A stretch of DNA of 64,000 bases from an uncultured Porphyromonadaceae bacterium (lineage in GTDB: Bacteria > Bacteroidota > Bacteroidia > Bacteroidales > Muribaculaceae): NCBI GenBank assembly GCA_947649495.1, contig CANSRU010000010.1:1-64000 (forward strand), read 5' to 3'. Below, in pieces: positions 5,120 to 25,048 of this stretch (the first letter of the stretch is position 1; each line of letters begins with the position of its first letter). The position numbers were made by a program, and so were the translations under genes. The notes beneath the pieces were generated by a model. The model was not told where the DNA came from. It searched no databases and saw nothing but the letters and a program-made list of their open reading frames with translations.

Positions 5120-6271
5120 TTATATCGCTACATATCCAGGCAACCGGCGGCAATTATATTGCATTGCCATTATCTCACCGTATGCGCCGGCAGAACGAAA
5201 CGCAATCATATCACCACGATTAGTCAGAGGGAGCTCAACATCTTGTCCAAATGTATCCGATGATTCACATATTGGCCCTACGACATCATAATGAATCATC
5301 TTGTCAGTTTGATGCGATGTTATGTTCTGTATAAGATGGTGTGCCTGATACAGTGCCGGACGAATCAGGTCTGTAAATCCGGCATCGACAATTACAAAGC
5401 GCTTGTTAACACCCTGCTTCACATACAGAACCCTTGAAATCAAACTACCGCATTGAGCCACGATAGACCGTCCAAGTTCAAAGTGCACCTCCTGCCCTTT
5501 CCGGATGTTCAGTTCTGACTTAAATATATTAAAATAACTTTCAAAATCAGGAATGGGATTAGAATCGGGATTATCATAATCCACACCAAGTCCCCCACCT
5601 ACGTTTATCGTACTGAACCTCACGCCTATACTTTCATACTCATCCTGAAGCAAGTTTATTCTCTTGCACAACAGCCGATACGGATCCATTGTAGTGATTT
5701 GCGAACCGATATGAAAATGCAATCCGCATAGCTTTATACTATCGTATTCCATACATTTATCCACAATGGACCTCAGCATGGACATATCTATACCGAACTT
5801 ATTTTCAGAAAGCCCCGTAGTTATATAATGGTGGGTATGAGCATCAATATCAGGATTCACTCTCAATGCGACATTAACGCACACACCCTTATGCGATGCA
5901 ATCTGTGCAATTACATCCAGTTCAGCCTCTGACTCCACATTGAAACACCCTATACCGGTGTTTATGGCATAATCTATCTCCTCGTCGCTCTTCCCGACAC
6001 CGGCAAACACAATATCCGCAGGGTTGAAACCACATTCAACAGCTTTCTTTATCTCACCGCCGCTAACCGTATCCGCTCCAAATCCACGTGCGGAAATTGT
6101 ATTTAATATTTCGGAATTAACATTCGCCTTTACGGCATAATGCACTTTAAAACCGGGATAATCAGATGAAGCCGAAACGGCATCGAGAGTGGCACGCAAC
6201 AGCTCCAGATCATAATAATAAAATGGCGTGCGCCGATGTTTGAAATCTTCGACAGGAAATATTGAGGACAT
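5120..6271 (-). CDS. lysA: diaminopimelate decarboxylase
   Basis: This PLP-dependent fold-III decarboxylase of 383 residues performs the last step of lysine synthesis, meso-diaminopimelate to lysine. The PLP lysine is Lys48 in HYAVKAN. A phosphate-binding GGGLG is present, and the active-site cysteine lies in the GPICESSDTFG motif near the C-terminus, which favours a DAP substrate over polyamine-type homologues. ATG at 6271 is chosen; longer starts overlap the end of lysC. It lies 13 bp after lysC on the same strand. About 190 bp without a gene follow toward aguB, where I see nothing definite. Confidence 0.93.
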   Translation of the reverse strand: MSSIFPVEDFKHRRTPFYYYDLELLRATLDAVSASSDYPGFKVHYAVKANVNSEILNTISARGFGADTVSGGEIKKAVECGFNPADIVFAGVGKSDEEIDYAINTGIGCFNVESEAELDVIAQIASHKGVCVNVALRVNPDIDAHTHHYITTGLSENKFGIDMSMLRSIVDKCMEYDSIKLCGLHFHIGSQITTMDPYRLLCKRINLLQDEYESIGVRFSTINVGGGLGVDYDNPDSNPIPDFESYFNIFKSELNIRKGQEVHFELGRSIVAQCGSLISRVLYVKQGVNKRFVIVDAGFTDLIRPALYQAHHLIQNITSHQTDKMIHYDVVGPICESSDTFGQDVELPLTNRGDMIAFRSAGAYGEIMAMQYNCRRLPGYVAI

Positions 6272-6284
6272 AATCTGTTTGTAT

Positions 6285-7604
6285 TTATTTATTAAACAGA
6301 TGCGCACTGAGCATGTTCAGTGCTTTCACCTTGTCTTCCTTACGAACAAGCAATGATATGTTATAGTTGCTTCCGCCATACGAAATCATACGCACGGGAA
6401 TTTCCCGTAACGCATTGACCACCTCTGCCTCAAAACCGCGGTTCTGCCACTCAAGGTCACCTACAACACATATTATAACCATATCTTTATCCACAGTCAC
6501 AGTTCCGAATTTCTTCAAATCATCGACTATGGCCTGAAGATTATGCTCATTATCGATGGTTACGGAAACTCCCACCTCCGATGTCACAACCATATCGATT
6601 GGCGTGCGGTGTGTTTCGAAAATCTCAAAAACCTTACGCAGAAATCCGTAAGCCAGCAGCATCCTGCCGCTTTTTATCTTAATAGCTGTGATGTTGTCTT
6701 TAGCCGCCACTGCCTTTATGGTGTGAGTGGCCGGAGCATTGTAGATTACAGTTCCGGGGGCATCAGGACACATAGTATTGAGTAAGCGCACTGGAATATT
6801 GTTCAATTTAGCCGGCAACACACATGTGGGGTGCAGTATCTTGGCTCCGAAATAAGCCAACTCGGCCGCTTCTTCAAAATGCAGCTCGCCTACCGGAGAC
6901 GTCCCTTCGACATATCGGGGATCATTGTTATGCATACCGTCGATATCGGTCCATATCTCTATTTCCTCAGCTTTTACAGCCGCACCGACAATTGATGCCG
7001 TATAGTCACTGCCACCACGCTGTAGATTATCCACCTCACCATAGGCATTCAGACACACAAATCCTTGTGTTATATATAAATCAGCATCAGGATTTTCCGA
7101 TAATAAATCAGAAAGTCGACGGCTGATATAATCATTGTCAGGCTCTCCATTCTTATCCGTACGCATGAAATCCAATGCCGGTAACATAACAGCATTTACC
7201 CCTTGCTTACGGAGATACAGAAGCATAAGCGCAGTCGACATCATCTCGCCGCGCGCAAGCACCTCCTTCTCATCAAACATCGTGAACACCGGTTTATTAT
7301 ACCCGCGCACAAATTCAATGTTTTCTGTAATGGCATCGTTTGCCTGCTGCCGATATGCATCATCATCTCCAAAAAGTTCATCGACAGTAGCTCTATATTT
7401 AGCTTCCAACACATTCAGCGTCTCTTTGGCTCCGGCGGCATTACCTTTATATAGATAGTCGGAAATTTCCACAAGAGTGTTTGTCGTACCAGACATTGCA
7501 CTGAGAACCACTATATTCTTTCCCCTCGACATAACAAGTCGGGCCACGTCTTTGATACGCTGTGCAGAACCAACCGAGGTTCCGCCAAATTTCATTACTT
7601 TCAT
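6285..7604 (-). CDS. lysC: aspartate kinase (monofunctional)
   Basis: At 439 residues this is a stand-alone aspartokinase, making aspartyl-phosphate at the entry to lysine, threonine and methionine synthesis. The N-terminal KFGGTSVG is at residues 5-12. The substrate-binding segment RGGSDYTA and a nearby WTDIDGM follow. The C-terminal ~140 residues form tandem ACT domains, which in this family sense lysine or threonine; which one is not decidable here. No homoserine dehydrogenase domain is fused. It is the first gene of the lysC-lysA operon and has a well-formed promoter. Confidence 0.95.
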   Translation of the reverse strand: MKVMKFGGTSVGSAQRIKDVARLVMSRGKNIVVLSAMSGTTNTLVEISDYLYKGNAAGAKETLNVLEAKYRATVDELFGDDDAYRQQANDAITENIEFVRGYNKPVFTMFDEKEVLARGEMMSTALMLLYLRKQGVNAVMLPALDFMRTDKNGEPDNDYISRRLSDLLSENPDADLYITQGFVCLNAYGEVDNLQRGGSDYTASIVGAAVKAEEIEIWTDIDGMHNNDPRYVEGTSPVGELHFEEAAELAYFGAKILHPTCVLPAKLNNIPVRLLNTMCPDAPGTVIYNAPATHTIKAVAAKDNITAIKIKSGRMLLAYGFLRKVFEIFETHRTPIDMVVTSEVGVSVTIDNEHNLQAIVDDLKKFGTVTVDKDMVIICVVGDLEWQNRGFEAEVVNALREIPVRMISYGGSNYNISLLVRKEDKVKALNMLSAHLFNK

Positions 7605-20431: not shown

Positions 20432-20467
20432 TAATAAAAGCAGAGCCATTGGCTCTGCTTTTATTAT
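20432..20467. terminator. bidirectional terminator between pgk and the EamA gene
   Basis: A long, nearly perfect palindrome is centred at about 20450 (GCAGAGCCA paired with TGGCTCTGC) with AT-rich flanks on both sides. It works for both convergent genes and overlaps the stop codon of the EamA gene. Confidence 0.85.
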
Positions 20468-21402
20468 TTACCTTTATAGCGCAGACGTGGAAACAGTTTG
20501 CGTATACGCGTAAGCCGCGGATGTATCGCGGGCGATGCCACAACACCACTCACAGCCACAACTATCATTATCAGTCCGGCTATATCGCGCACTGTAAGCA
20601 CCTCGCCAAATACAAGCACTCCGAAAAACACAGCTGTAACCGGTTCGAGAGCCCCGAGTATGGCTGTAGGTGTTGACCCTATATACTGTATGGCCGCCGT
20701 GGTACACAGAAATGATATCGCGGTAGGAAAAATGGCCAACGCTGCCACACATCCCCATAGATACCATCTGTCGGCCGGGGGCACCTGAACTACACCCGTA
20801 ATGGCAAGCCTTACAGCAAAAAGCGAAAGCCCGAACAGCAGCACATAGAATGTCACCGTGAGAGTTGCCACATTGCGCAACCCGGTCTTATTCACCGCTA
20901 CTATATATATGGCATAGGACAATGCCGAAGCCATTACAAGCATTGTGCCGGTAAAGCTCAATGTGGCATCACCTCCACCTTTATACAGCATCGCAATTCC
21001 GGTGAGAGCCAACGCTATACAAGCAATGGTTATGGCCGATAACCGCTCGCGGAACATCGCCGCCATAATAACCGCCACCATTATGGGGTAGACAAACAGC
21101 ATGGTTGATGCTATCCCGGCATCCATGTAGTTGTAACTGAGAAACAAACCGAGCGACGAGAAAGCGACAACCAATCCCATTATAATCAATGTAGCCAACT
21201 GCCTGCCGCTCACCTTGAAGCTACGCCCGCGGGCTACAATCATAATGGCTAACAGCGGGATTGCAAACAGATAGCGGAAAAACAGCACCGAATCGGCAGT
21301 CATCCCCACATTATAAAGCGGTAGCGTGAAGAGAGGATTCATGCCATAAGTAGCCGCAGCCACCGCACCGAGAAGATAACCTTTGGCCTTGGTTCCCGCC
21401 AT
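20464..21402 (-). CDS. EamA/DMT-family transporter
   Basis: This 312-residue integral membrane protein has about ten hydrophobic segments arranged as two EamA repeats. Examples are LLAIMIVARG near residue 55 and AGLIMIVVAVSGVVA near 280, with the repeat feature LGALEPVTAVFFG in the second half. The family exports or imports small metabolites such as amino acids and nucleotides. It is the last gene of a minus-strand operon and follows ddl after only 3 bp, so its cargo may relate to D-alanyl or cell-wall precursor metabolism (inference). Confidence 0.85.
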   Translation of the reverse strand: MAGTKAKGYLLGAVAAATYGMNPLFTLPLYNVGMTADSVLFFRYLFAIPLLAIMIVARGRSFKVSGRQLATLIIMGLVVAFSSLGLFLSYNYMDAGIASTMLFVYPIMVAVIMAAMFRERLSAITIACIALALTGIAMLYKGGGDATLSFTGTMLVMASALSYAIYIVAVNKTGLRNVATLTVTFYVLLFGLSLFAVRLAITGVVQVPPADRWYLWGCVAALAIFPTAISFLCTTAAIQYIGSTPTAILGALEPVTAVFFGVLVFGEVLTVRDIAGLIMIVVAVSGVVASPAIHPRLTRIRKLFPRLRYKGK

Positions 21403-21405
21403 AAG

Positions 21406-22596
21406 TTAACGTTTTGCTCCCTTACAGCCTTTGCCTCCTTTCAGACCGCCACCCAACGAAAAGATATTCTGGTCGTAGCTAATGGTCTTCATGCCCTGCT
21501 CACGTTTACGCTTCAATGCGAGTTTCACCAGACGGTCCATCAGTTTGTCAAAAGGCAACCCTGTGGCTTCCCACAGATAGAAAGACAGCGAACCGGGTAT
21601 TGTATTTATCTCATTGACATATATTTCGCCATTATCTGCATCCATTATCACGTCCACACGGCTCACACCATGGCACGAAAGCACACGGAAAGTCTCTCCG
21701 GCAAGAAAACGGATACGGTCGCTGACATCTACAGGCAGATCGGCCGGTATGCGTTTCTGTGAAGCCTGCATACCCTTGGCACCCTTGGTTCCACCCATGT
21801 ATTTATCCTCATACGACAGAATTTCACCGCTTTTTATCGGCTCCTCACACACCGATGTCTCATACTCGTCGCAGTCACCAAGTACCGAGCAATTCACTTC
21901 ATGAAGATTTTCCACCATGTGTTCTACGATAATTCTGGTGGAATAGCGTTCGGCATCCTCCACTTTCGCCAATAATTGCTCTCGGTCCTTGGCTCGTCCT
22001 ATGCCGACGCTCGACCCGAGGTTGGCCGGTTTCACTATCACCGGATAGCCGAGTTTCGACTCAACCCTTGCTATCAGTTCATCCCGCTTTGCAAACCATT
22101 CCTTATCGGTAAACCATACATATTTCACCACGGGAATGTCACATGCCTGAAGAATCATCTTCATCGTTATCTTATCCATACCGTTGGCCGATGCAAGCAC
22201 ATTGCAACCGGCGTATGGGATACCTATTGCATCAAGGATGCCTTCAAACGTGCCATCCTCGCCATACGAACCATGAAGCACAGGAATCACCACATCGAGT
22301 TTGGTTACCACACCGTTGCCAAACAGAGGACGCTTGCGTGAGTACACATTGTAGTCACCCCTCACCGGCTCCATGTAGATCTCGCGGCACTTTGCAAGCA
22401 ATGCCGGTATGTCACGGTAATTGGCCACATCCAGCAACGCATCGCCGGTGTACCAATGTCCCTGCTTTGTTATATATATAGGTGTAACATCGTAAACATC
22501 GCGGTCTATAGCACTCATGGCCTGTGATGCCGATATGACAGAAATCTCATGCTCGGTGGAACAACCGCCGAAGAACACTCCTATGTTAGTTTTCAT
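21406..22596 (-). CDS. ddl: D-alanine--D-alanine ligase
   Basis: This 396-residue ATP-grasp enzyme joins two D-alanines for peptidoglycan. Visible motifs are GGCSTEHEISVISA with the substrate glutamate, PANLGSSVGIG with the serine, and SYEDKY with the tyrosine typical of D-Ala-D-Ala rather than VanA-type enzymes. VDVIMD and VNEINTIPGS are the metal site. The omega-loop after EDKY is long and Gly/Lys-rich, and the C-terminus ends in a Gly/Lys-rich tail, both unlike E. coli DdlB (306 residues). It lies between a membrane Mur ligase and a transporter, so it may be a second, specialised Ddl. Confidence 0.9.
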   Translation of the reverse strand: MKTNIGVFFGGCSTEHEISVISASQAMSAIDRDVYDVTPIYITKQGHWYTGDALLDVANYRDIPALLAKCREIYMEPVRGDYNVYSRKRPLFGNGVVTKLDVVIPVLHGSYGEDGTFEGILDAIGIPYAGCNVLASANGMDKITMKMILQACDIPVVKYVWFTDKEWFAKRDELIARVESKLGYPVIVKPANLGSSVGIGRAKDREQLLAKVEDAERYSTRIIVEHMVENLHEVNCSVLGDCDEYETSVCEEPIKSGEILSYEDKYMGGTKGAKGMQASQKRIPADLPVDVSDRIRFLAGETFRVLSCHGVSRVDVIMDADNGEIYVNEINTIPGSLSFYLWEATGLPFDKLMDRLVKLALKRKREQGMKTISYDQNIFSLGGGLKGGKGCKGAKR

Positions 22597-22629
22597 TGCT
22601 AATATGTTATTTTTTGATTGTAATCCTGT

Positions 22630-24234
22630 TTATTTAAATGTATCGGGAAGGTCATTTTCATACAATACCGTATCTCCGCCACGTAGCATAGCTGACAGAA
22701 GTTGCTGTGCCTCGCTGAAAGTTGCGGCCTCATGGACCTCTATGGAGCTATTACCTGTACTTCCGATTCCCTCCACTATGGCCGCGCGGTTATACTCACC
22801 CACTACTATTGCAACATCGGCCGAAACCGCTATTTTAGCACCAAACTCACGGTTTAGTTCATATTGTCTCTCACCAAGTTCAATCATGCCCGGAGTCACC
22901 ACATAGCGGCGTCCGCCGGCCATCGATGCGAGCACATCAAGAGCCATAGCCGAACCGGTCGGATTGGAATTGAATGCATCGTCTATTATAGTCACCCCTC
23001 CTGCCGTGCGCTTCATATTGAGACGATGCTCCACCTGCTCTATCTTTTCCACAGCATGCCGTATCTTTGATTCCGGAACGTCAAGATGAAGAGCCACCAC
23101 AACAGCCGCAATCAAATTGGACACATTGCACTCCCCGACAAGTTTGGTGTGAAGTGTTATTTCCTTTCCATCGCCTTTAACGGTAAAGGTGGTTCCGTAT
23201 GCATCATACACTACATCGGTGGCGACAAATGCCACTTTCTCGCAATTTGCCACGCCATATCGCACACACGCCACATTCCCAACTTTACGCGAAGCAATAA
23301 ATGGAAAGTCATTATTTATAACCGCCAGACCATCGGCAGGCAATGCATCTATCAGTTCAAATTTAGTACGCTGCACATTCTCAATGCTCTTGAACGATTC
23401 AAGATGCTGAGGCCCTACGGCGGTAACAATACCTATCTGTGGATTTACCAAGTCGCATATTTCCTTTATATCGCCCGGTTGTTTGGCACCCATCTCGCAT
23501 ATAAACACCTCCGTATATGGCTGCATATACTCCCTCACCGTACGTATCACCCCTAGTGTGGTATTATAGCTTCCGGGGGTCATCAGCACATCGTAACTTT
23601 CCGAAAGTATACGATGTAAATAATGCTTGGTGCTCGTTTTTCCATAACTTCCGGTTATTCCTATCACCTTAAGTCCTGGCATTGATTTAAGTATTGCCGA
23701 AGCCTCATTGTAATAACGGCGGTTTATATGGCGTTCCATCGGACCCAGCATATATACAGCCAGCATTGTAATGACATGCGACAGACAATACATCAACAAA
23801 AACACCACTGAAACAAAATATATCCCATGAAGCATATTCTGCCGACATGCAATTGCATAAGCCACAGCTGCAACAGCCGCTCCAATCAGAACCATCACCG
23901 TATATATCCGCTTCACCCTGTTGGTCCATACCAAAGGCTTCTTATATTTCTTTCTTAAAAGTGTTATGGCCGAACCGGCGGAAAACAGCCCTATGAGCGC
24001 CATGGCCCAGACGTCGGTATTGAACGAGACAAGGGATACCAACATGACACACATACCCACAAGGCGAGGATACGATGTTGTGTCGCCCGAAGATCGTAGC
24101 CAACGCATATATCGGTCGGGGCGATACGAATTCTGCTGCATCATCATCAGATCGCGGGCCAATTCCGCCAAGAAATTCACCGCGGCCAGCAGCATCACGA
24201 AAACAAATGTCAAAATCAAGACTAAAGGAGTCAT
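22630..24234 (-). CDS. membrane-anchored Mur ligase (MurF-like)
   Basis: This protein of 534 residues has no canonical MurF domain 1. Residues 1-165 hold about five hydrophobic segments (around 4-22, 57-73, 77-93, 110-130 and 136-163). The Mur ligase ATPase core follows: P-loop GITGSYGKTSTK from 192, the EMGAKQPGDI segment with the conserved Glu, IDDAFNSNPTG for the central-domain adenine contact, and a C-terminal domain with TPGMIELG. It ends ENDLPDTFK. The family adds D-Ala-D-Ala or another dipeptide to a precursor; the immediate ddl neighbour fits this. The actual acceptor is unknown; a membrane-bound acceptor is inferred. Confidence 0.85.
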   Translation of the reverse strand: MTPLVLILTFVFVMLLAAVNFLAELARDLMMMQQNSYRPDRYMRWLRSSGDTTSYPRLVGMCVMLVSLVSFNTDVWAMALIGLFSAGSAITLLRKKYKKPLVWTNRVKRIYTVMVLIGAAVAAVAYAIACRQNMLHGIYFVSVVFLLMYCLSHVITMLAVYMLGPMERHINRRYYNEASAILKSMPGLKVIGITGSYGKTSTKHYLHRILSESYDVLMTPGSYNTTLGVIRTVREYMQPYTEVFICEMGAKQPGDIKEICDLVNPQIGIVTAVGPQHLESFKSIENVQRTKFELIDALPADGLAVINNDFPFIASRKVGNVACVRYGVANCEKVAFVATDVVYDAYGTTFTVKGDGKEITLHTKLVGECNVSNLIAAVVVALHLDVPESKIRHAVEKIEQVEHRLNMKRTAGGVTIIDDAFNSNPTGSAMALDVLASMAGGRRYVVTPGMIELGERQYELNREFGAKIAVSADVAIVVGEYNRAAIVEGIGSTGNSSIEVHEAATFSEAQQLLSAMLRGGDTVLYENDLPDTFK

Positions 24235-24261
24235 TCCAATTATATGTTTATATGTAAAATA

Positions 24262-25026
24262 TTACGAACCTGATGTAAGGAAACTTGCCAGCACAGCTGC
24301 AAACTGACGCGGATTGTCAAGGAAACTATAGTGACCGCAACCGGGGAAGCTCACCAAACCGGCATCCGGTATCAGACGCTCCATTATTTTGGCATCGCCC
24401 AACGGAGTGGCCGTATCATTCTCCCCCCATATAAGCAACGTAGGGGCTTTGACATCCGGCATCACTGCCTTGAGGTCTTCATTTACCACCTTACTGAGAA
24501 TAGCTCTCATTGTAGGCGTGGCGTTAGCATAATCGTCAGAACCACGTTTAGCCCGCTGTCTGTCTATTATCGCATCAGCCTGCTTACGTCCGTGCAACAG
24601 ACGCAGCCACCGCTTCATAAGTTTAAACGAATACACCTTAATATAATATTTCAACTTGCGACGCGGTTTTACACCTGCGGCATCAACGAGTATCAGCTTG
24701 TCTACTTCATTGCGCGAAGCATACAGAATGCCTACACGGCCTCCGAATGAATGCCCGAGCAACGACGGTCGCTCTATCCCAAGCTTATGCACCATCTTCT
24801 CTATAAGAAGGGTATACTCTTCGACGCCCCACACCGAATCCGGCTCAGGAGTTTCGCCAAATCCCGGGAAATCCACATTATACACCGTGTGGCTTTGCGA
24901 CGCCACAGCCTCGACAGAAGCCAGAGTGGAGTGATTGCACCCCCAGCCGTGCATCATTATCAGCGGTTTACCACTACCCGACACCGTATAATGCAATGGT
25001 ATATTATCAATATCTATAGTCTGCAT
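24262..25026 (-). CDS. alpha/beta hydrolase of the Mur ligase-Ddl operon
   Basis: This 254-residue cytoplasmic alpha/beta hydrolase has oxyanion motif HGWGCNH, nucleophile Ser93 in GHSFGG, an acid in WGENDTATP and His in GCGHYSF. ATG at 25026 is preferred over a TTG at 25035. There is no signal peptide. It opens the four-gene minus-strand operon, with a 27-bp gap to the Mur ligase gene. The substrate is unknown; the position next to Ddl and the Mur ligase suggests an ester or peptide related to envelope precursors. Confidence 0.82.
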   Translation of the reverse strand: MQTIDIDNIPLHYTVSGSGKPLIMMHGWGCNHSTLASVEAVASQSHTVYNVDFPGFGETPEPDSVWGVEEYTLLIEKMVHKLGIERPSLLGHSFGGRVGILYASRNEVDKLILVDAAGVKPRRKLKYYIKVYSFKLMKRWLRLLHGRKQADAIIDRQRAKRGSDDYANATPTMRAILSKVVNEDLKAVMPDVKAPTLLIWGENDTATPLGDAKIMERLIPDAGLVSFPGCGHYSFLDNPRQFAAVLASFLTSGS

Positions 25027-25048
25027 GACAGGCAACTTTTCATCGCAG

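Follow-up and report, generated by a model that had tools for sequence, protein, structure and literature searches.

A membrane-domain MurF-like ligase, conserved with an alpha/beta hydrolase and a variant Ddl, probably takes the place of canonical MurF and Ddl in several bacterial lineages

We analyzed a stretch of 64,000 nucleotides (hereafter the window; contig CANSRU010000010.1 of assembly GCA_947649495.1, positions 1 to 64,000) from an uncultured Muribaculaceae bacterium of the order Bacteroidales. Four minus-strand genes, whose coordinates agree with the gaps of 27, 33 and 3 bp given in a preliminary description of this DNA, encode an alpha/beta hydrolase (ABH), a MurF-like ligase with a membrane domain (mMurF), a variant D-Ala-D-Ala ligase (Ddl) and an EamA-family transporter (Table 1). 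We refer to ABH-mMurF-Ddl as the trio. The -7 element noted earlier, TAACTTTG, is present upstream of the operon and fits TAnnTTTG, which we take to be the Bacteroidetes -7 consensus; it is a candidate by this consensus only. No -33 element was seen at the usual spacing from it. Promoter and terminator scans gave little yield.

Table 1. Genes and features of the operon (window positions)
Feature	Position	Strand	Remarks
EamA-family transporter	20464..21402	-	312 aa; EamA family match in two stretches; downstream of the trio
Variant D-Ala-D-Ala ligase (Ddl)	21406..22596	-	396 aa; Dala_Dala_lig_N and Dala_Dala_lig_C matches
mMurF	22630..24234	-	534 aa; Mur_ligase_M and Mur_ligase_C at 187-534
mMurF membrane domain	23677..24234	-	Residues 1-186, helical; in place of the UDP-MurNAc-binding domain 1
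ABH	24262..25035	-	257 aa from TTG; in-frame ATG at 25026; Abhydrolase match; triad S96-D207-H235
Possible Bacteroidetes-type -7 element TAACTTTG (TAnnTTTG)	25056-25049	-	Read from the sequence; upstream of the operon

The Mur ligase was described earlier as having a membrane domain instead of domain 1, and three lines of analysis agree with this. Mur_ligase (PF01225, domain 1) had no match in the window's mMurF or in three other mMurF proteins scanned, and it was matched in three of three canonical MurF proteins. Hydropathy analysis gave four hydrophobic segments in the window's mMurF and three to five in the other members shown. In the AlphaFold2 model (mean predicted local distance difference test score, pLDDT, of 91.3; predicted template modeling score of 0.79), residues 3-183 are nearly all-helical, with helices at 3-34, 39-49, 55-68, 74-94, 105-129, 134-150 and 152-183. 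The model is consistent with four to five membrane helices, helix 55-68 being below the hydropathy threshold. The positive-inside rule would place the catalytic part, as well as the stretches at about 23-56 and 95-111, in the cytoplasm. Q33, Y37, K98, T104, R106, R109, P165 and E167 of the membrane domain were each kept in 48 of 48 mMurF sequences, and they fall within stretches predicted to be cytoplasmic.

The remainder of the protein resembles MurF. MurF structures were the best Foldseek matches of the model; the match with Acinetobacter MurF extends over 360 columns (template modeling score of 0.58 over the whole query), so that well over 150 mMurF residues lie outside it. Residues G107, G110, K111, T112, E158, H188, K202, R316 and D331 of E. 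coli K-12 MurF are kept in 48/48 mMurF; the catalytic roles of these residues, and of the DdlB residues considered below, are in part those that we presume. Against the MurF model TIGR01143 the window's mMurF scored 246.1 bits (cut-off 288.6), and all three mMurF scanned with NCBIfam remained below the MurF cut-off. Thus, mMurF shares with MurF the middle and C-terminal Mur domains, the ATP-site residues and the best sequence and fold matches, but it differs by the missing domain 1 match, the helical membrane domain, the score below the curated cut-off, its placement in a separate clade, a C-terminal KGSR changed to ENDLPD and a constant hydrolase partner.

This partner, ABH, has a triad (S96-D207-H235, in the numbering from TTG) and a GSxDY motif that were invariant in all 125 aligned family members, the alignment omitting matches below 120 bits or covering fewer than about 200 residues. 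Its nearest NCBIfam model is the EstV family lipase NF058580, which the family members match at 122-157 bits (122.3 for the window's ABH) against a cut-off of 300. ABH and EstV have the serine hydrolase triad in common, but ABH stays at about half of the cut-off, carries the invariant GSxDY and is linked to Ddl and mMurF.

The variant Ddl scored above the cut-offs of the Ddl subfamily models (TIGR01205, 283.2 bits, cut-off 245.65; NF002528, 340 bits, cut-off 262) and keeps the DdlB residues E15, K97, K144, S150, E187, K215, Y216, R255, D257, E270, N272 and G276 in 55 of 55 sequences. It departs from Ddl in the absence of residues 277-280 (E. coli DdlB numbering; 55/55), and in having a long Gly/Lys-rich omega-loop and a basic tail; Ser281 is kept in 54/55. 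The placing of this gap is alignment-dependent, since a pairwise alignment splits it in two. The omega-loop and the tail, both pointed out in the preliminary description, are present in the sequence and are of low confidence in the model, where the core is good (mean pLDDT 87.8) and residues 268-278 (omega-loop) and 383-396 (tail) have a pLDDT under 50. The linked Ddl proteins formed their own clade among 46 rows, with 99% support in the Shimodaira-Hasegawa-like approximate likelihood ratio test (SH-aLRT). A wider Ddl tree did not unite the variant rows in a single clade, and its basal branching was weak.

Within the order, the trio occurs in the same gene order at 26 of 30 loci, the window's own counted. 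Among the four exceptions, a neighbor is missing in a short stretch at L026 and L038, ABH is displaced at L031 and Ddl is elsewhere at L041. In a scan of named genomes we kept 80 of at least 580 confirmed loci; full-length mMurF relatives were found in records labeled as Bacteroidota groups, Clostridia, Tissierellia, Bacilli and Poribacteria, and also in bins labeled Chloroflexi, Nitrospirae and Thiomargarita. Seventy of these 80 loci and 12 added later made up 82 further loci, 62 of which have the trio in order; another, L186, holds all three genes in a different order and L228 is not an mMurF. Such recurrence of a three-gene order is far beyond chance. ABH-mMurF-Ddl is therefore a module of conserved order across phyla, and the grouping of hydrolase, Mur ligase and Ddl in the preliminary description holds well beyond the window.

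The same cannot be said of EamA, which had been suggested to move a related metabolite as a part of the operon. It is linked to the trio in five of 13 relatives and had no match in any of the 80 loci from other genomes, and for this reason we regard it as a local addition outside the module. Other neighbors (a nucleotidyltransferase, an FtsX-like protein and glycogen enzymes) are common mostly to one family of the second Bacteroidota class introduced below. At GC-rich loci, where mMurF genes were taken from homology-based calls, long frames were considered as possible ABH-mMurF fusions. This was rejected from a check at one locus, L090, where a different frame overlaps the extra N-terminal part, and it is this frame that holds the ABH match.

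The preliminary description took the operon for a candidate undescribed envelope system. We observed that the window's Ddl is the only Ddl found in its own genome, and that the sole other full-length MurF-type match of comparable score there is an 836-residue fusion of MurF with alanine racemase (MurF-Alr). The trio enzymes are thus largely the only housekeeping MurF and Ddl of the genome, a case that the preliminary description itself named as speaking against its view. This strengthens the finding rather than removing it, because the housekeeping step itself seems to be replaced.

The distribution of the enzymes among 61 genomes of the order supports this. We counted as standalone MurF those matches above the curated cut-off in frames of 426-468 aa, with matches ranked by score. 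Of the 37 genomes of the window's family, 30 have the membrane domain (G002 as fragments), as does one genome of another family (G057). The matches listed include a standalone MurF for 21 of the 24 other-family genomes and for none of the 37 own-family ones. The three other-family genomes lacking MurF are G057, which has mMurF, and G045 and G053, which are 88% and 70% complete. When only the 36 genomes of at least 90% completeness were considered, 17 (including the window's) had mMurF and 19 had MurF, with none having both and none having neither. A PF01820 Ddl match was present exactly once in each of the 53/61 genomes that had any. The seven genomes of the own family that lack mMurF have a completeness of 63-88% and no Ddl match either, which is as expected if the shared operon fell in an assembly gap. 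We rejected the reading as an extra system on these data, Ddl being the sole one and standalone MurF not having been found in the module-carrying genomes of the order; the trio looks like a housekeeping step. Synthesis of amino-acid lipids by the Mur ligase was also considered and dropped, as 23 of 24 Bacteroidales genomes of other families had no membrane-domain match.

We observed a similar exclusion in a second Bacteroidota class, probably Rhodothermia by its relatives Rhodothermus, Salinivenus, Balneola and Gracilimonas. Here mMurF was called from long frames whose murF match did not begin before profile position 59; 57 of 70 genomes had mMurF, 12 had MurF, one had neither and none had both. 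The membrane-domain model also matched 52 of the 57 calls, those of G195 and G356-G359 not being confirmed by it. In this class mMurF adjoins Ddl in none of the 21 genomes tested. The best Ddl was nevertheless the deletion variant (NEINTIPGS[FL]SFYLW type) in 21/21 mMurF genomes and an ordinary Ddl in 4/4 MurF genomes; these counts, like the residue counts above, omit the weak second ATP-grasp hits L274 and L277-L280, which are without the Ddl motif. ABH scored at least 164 bits in 18/18 mMurF genomes, 12 of them with unlinked ABH, and was found in 0/6 MurF genomes at E <= 1e-15; it was in this class that we examined MurF-only genomes for ABH. As ABH and the variant Ddl track mMurF even when unlinked, a functional coupling of the trio beyond linkage is likely.

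A third sample came from the Clostridia-like class of Peptoniphilus grossensis, in which 61 of 74 genomes had MurF, 11 had an mMurF-like protein, none had both and two had neither at E <= 1e-52. The trio was in order in all 11 mMurF-only genomes. Two of these mMurF, in the 0.8-0.9 Mb genomes G436 (L225) and G403 (L227), have a short N-terminus unmatched by the membrane-domain part of the query. A second MurF-like match in G432 was rejected as an mMurF, since its match with canonical MurF begins close to the start and neither ABH nor Ddl adjoins it.

It could be argued that the MurF-Alr fusion is the working MurF of the window's lineage and that the trio serves another envelope product. The fusion is present, it keeps the ATP-binding GKT motif, and most genomes of the order carry it. 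However, fusions are also listed in Bacteroidales that have a standalone MurF, where they do not replace it. Domains 1 and 3 (PF01225 and PF02875) had no match in the one fusion scanned, that of the window's genome, and the DxYNANP motif is missing from the consensus of the aligned fusions. The fusion is thus a poor candidate for the working MurF. In addition, the matches listed for the second class at E <= 1e-40 include no fusion, and apart from weaker hits of 140-158 bits that may be MurE, no MurF-like protein other than mMurF was found there. We therefore consider this explanation improbable. Although the fusion is, like mMurF, a diverged MurF relative (PRK11930) in the same genome, it is fused to Alr, has no match to the C-terminal Mur domain in the one scanned, occurs also beside canonical MurF and belongs to a separate clade. 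One such fusion lies at G000:C8:32730-34004 (L123), and the same type is seen in other Bacteroidales; the role of its MurF part may be a regulatory or a structural one. In G013, a 495-aa frame whose MurF match is below the cut-off was taken as a putative truncated fusion.

In phylogenetic trees, the mMurF sequences formed a single clade, separate from both MurF and the fusion (SH-aLRT 95 and 100; 100/100 in a third tree); the trees with support of 100 and 100/100 leave out MurD, MurE and L225, and the latter also leaves out L244. The mMurF of the window's family grouped with mostly Bacillota and with bins labeled Thiomargarita and Tenericutes, and that of the second Bacteroidota class was placed elsewhere (94/82, 98/94). 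Forcing the two Bacteroidota groups together was mildly rejected (approximately unbiased test, p-AU 0.029). This split placement, together with the test, suggests separate acquisitions of mMurF and hence a repeated replacement.

From the above results, we consider it likely that the trio is a co-inherited module for the last step of stem-peptide synthesis, which replaces the canonical forms of Ddl and MurF. Computation gave the architecture and conservation of the trio, its co-occurrence and the mutual exclusion of mMurF and MurF; the chemistry is all what we infer. Judging from its conserved residues, the variant Ddl would form D-Ala-D-Ala from ATP and two D-Ala. mMurF would be anchored by its four to five membrane helices with the ATPase and C-terminal domains in the cytoplasm, and its conserved residues and fold suggest that it would convert the carboxylate of a tripeptide acceptor to an acyl phosphate and join D-Ala-D-Ala to it. 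ABH, with its intact triad, would probably serve as an esterase or peptidase that edits or unmasks the D-Ala-D-Ala donor or the product. Its constant presence would be explained if it edited wrong dipeptides, and equally if it unmasked a blocked donor. The preliminary description had the operon either building or recycling a D-Ala-D-Ala-bearing precursor at the membrane; building is probable, and recycling found no support in our analyses.

Several points weigh against this interpretation. Three genomes have neither enzyme at the cut used (G183 in the second class; G424 and G460 in the Clostridia-like class), which may reflect assembly gaps or another form of MurF. Of 40 genomes outside Bacteroidota that were chosen for their mMurF, eight also hold a MurF above the cut-off, with a second Ddl match near that MurF in seven of the eight; 27 of the other 32 have a single Ddl match. 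The two ligases can thus coexist and may differ in role, though coexistence is the minority case. Among the 82 further loci, nine have ABH without a Ddl match, two have Ddl without an ABH match and seven have neither, some of these stretches ending nearby. The classes were sampled, the association counts are uncorrected for relatedness, and we did not lean on the Fisher tests, which ignore shared ancestry. In mMurF, positions that are fixed in 20/20 canonical MurF rows are changed (E for K432 in 47/48, D for S434 in 48/48 and N for H372 in 48/48); going by these changes the donor could differ from D-Ala-D-Ala. K432 and S434 of MurF presumably bind the dipeptide carboxylate by analogy with other Mur ligases. 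Finally, the membrane domain may only localize mMurF.

Both sets of enzymes were seen in some Tissierellia-like genomes (L231-L236 with L153, L160, L162, L167, L174 and L176), which have MurF with a nearby canonical Ddl in addition to the trio. Another genome, G388 (L200), has two mMurF-like frames and two Ddl matches.

In the textbook order, MurF acts before MraY. The loss of the UDP-binding domain and the gain of a membrane domain suggest that the acceptor of mMurF would instead be lipid-linked (undecaprenyl-pyrophosphate-MurNAc-tripeptide or lipid II-tripeptide) and not the soluble UDP-MurNAc-tripeptide. According to the available text of the MurT/GatD structure paper, UDP substrates have their pyrophosphate where the N-terminal and middle domains meet; with lipid II as the substrate, a UDP-binding domain would not be needed and would probably collide with the membrane (PMC6113224). 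As membrane helices replace domain 1 in mMurF, and as the invariant K98, R106 and R109 are predicted at the cytoplasmic face, we slightly favor a lipid-linked acceptor over the UDP substrate, while putting its chances at about even.

Use of the soluble UDP-MurNAc-tripeptide remains a plausible reading, somewhat short of probable: the membrane domain would anchor the enzyme beside MraY or take over the binding of UDP, and the textbook order would be kept. The MurF-like catalytic residues of the middle and C-terminal domains and the best fold matches to MurF agree with this, and the eight of 40 genomes having both enzymes could be expected of equivalent alternatives. Yet domain 1, which contacts UDP in MurC-F as stated in the accessible part of the same paper (PMC6113224), was not found in mMurF. 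The conserved residues of the membrane domain would need to form a new UDP site, and the constant hydrolase partner would be left without a reason.

The nature of the product can be approached from vancomycin, which binds D-Ala-D-Ala. P. grossensis ph5 has no MurF-like match other than mMurF at E <= 1e-40, and no Ddl match other than the trio Ddl. This strain is reported as vancomycin-susceptible in the available text of its description (PMC3569384), and so, in the accessible part of a survey, are 30/30 Peptoniphilus isolates, three of them P. grossensis, the one survey species in which we checked the module (PMC8398781). Given the target of the drug, susceptibility in a strain in which only this module was found makes a D-Ala-D-Ala terminus the most likely product. 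This argues against a module that makes another stem end, such as D-Ala-X, with the Ddl subsite and the mMurF pocket both fitted to X. Such a product would account for the four residues lost in 55/55 from the Ddl loop beside Ser281, for the reversed charge at K432/S434 of mMurF and for the variant Ddl traveling with mMurF; in DdlB, Ser281 is the site of the second D-Ala carboxylate and Gly276 forms part of the oxyanion pocket, as far as the available text goes (PMC5717164). However, Tyr216 of Ddl is kept, and the Van-type D-Ala-D-Lac and D-Ala-D-Ser models matched the variant Ddl with at most 231 bits, far below cut-offs of at least 495 among the models listed. We give the D-Ala-X product little credence.

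A more specific form of the lipid-linked scheme, in our view unlikely, is that the membrane MurF adds D-Ala-D-Ala to undecaprenyl-linked tripeptide, after and not before lipid linkage, and that the hydrolase is needed since the donor would go through a form with a C-terminus that is masked or in need of editing. It would explain the joint remodeling of the carboxylate-side pockets of Ddl and MurF and the esterase-like partner.

Among known systems MurT is a precedent, being a Mur ligase that lacks domain 1 and acts on a lipid-linked muropeptide, lipid II; but it has a short flexible N-terminus, a zinc ribbon and GatD as its partner, as described in the available portion of the structure paper (PMC6113224). 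The MurT models, with cut-offs of 800 bits, give mMurF 25-26 bits, and the neighbors of mMurF are ABH and Ddl, not GatD. We found no description of a membrane MurF or of the trio among the open-access papers listed, though subscription papers or preprints may hold one; for murF in Peptoniphilus and Finegoldia only unrelated work was listed, and the accessible part of a Bulleidia paper (PMC12786226) describes neither the membrane MurF nor the trio.

If our interpretation is correct, the consequences reach beyond this window. MurF and Ddl, which are essential and nearly universal, have long been studied as antibacterial targets, and the module would have displaced both in whole lineages (the window's family, the second Bacteroidota class, some Clostridia and Bacilli). 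In that case MurF annotation, inhibitor spectra and the order of MurF followed by MraY would not be universal, and ABH would be a constant third enzyme in peptidoglycan synthesis. With a lipid-linked acceptor, the order of MurF and MraY would be reversed.

Elsewhere in the window, positions 5120-7604 of the minus strand hold a pyridoxal phosphate-dependent decarboxylase of the ornithine/diaminopimelate/arginine type, possibly lysA, and adjoining it an amino acid kinase with an ACT domain, possibly an aspartokinase; these are ordinary chromosomal surroundings.

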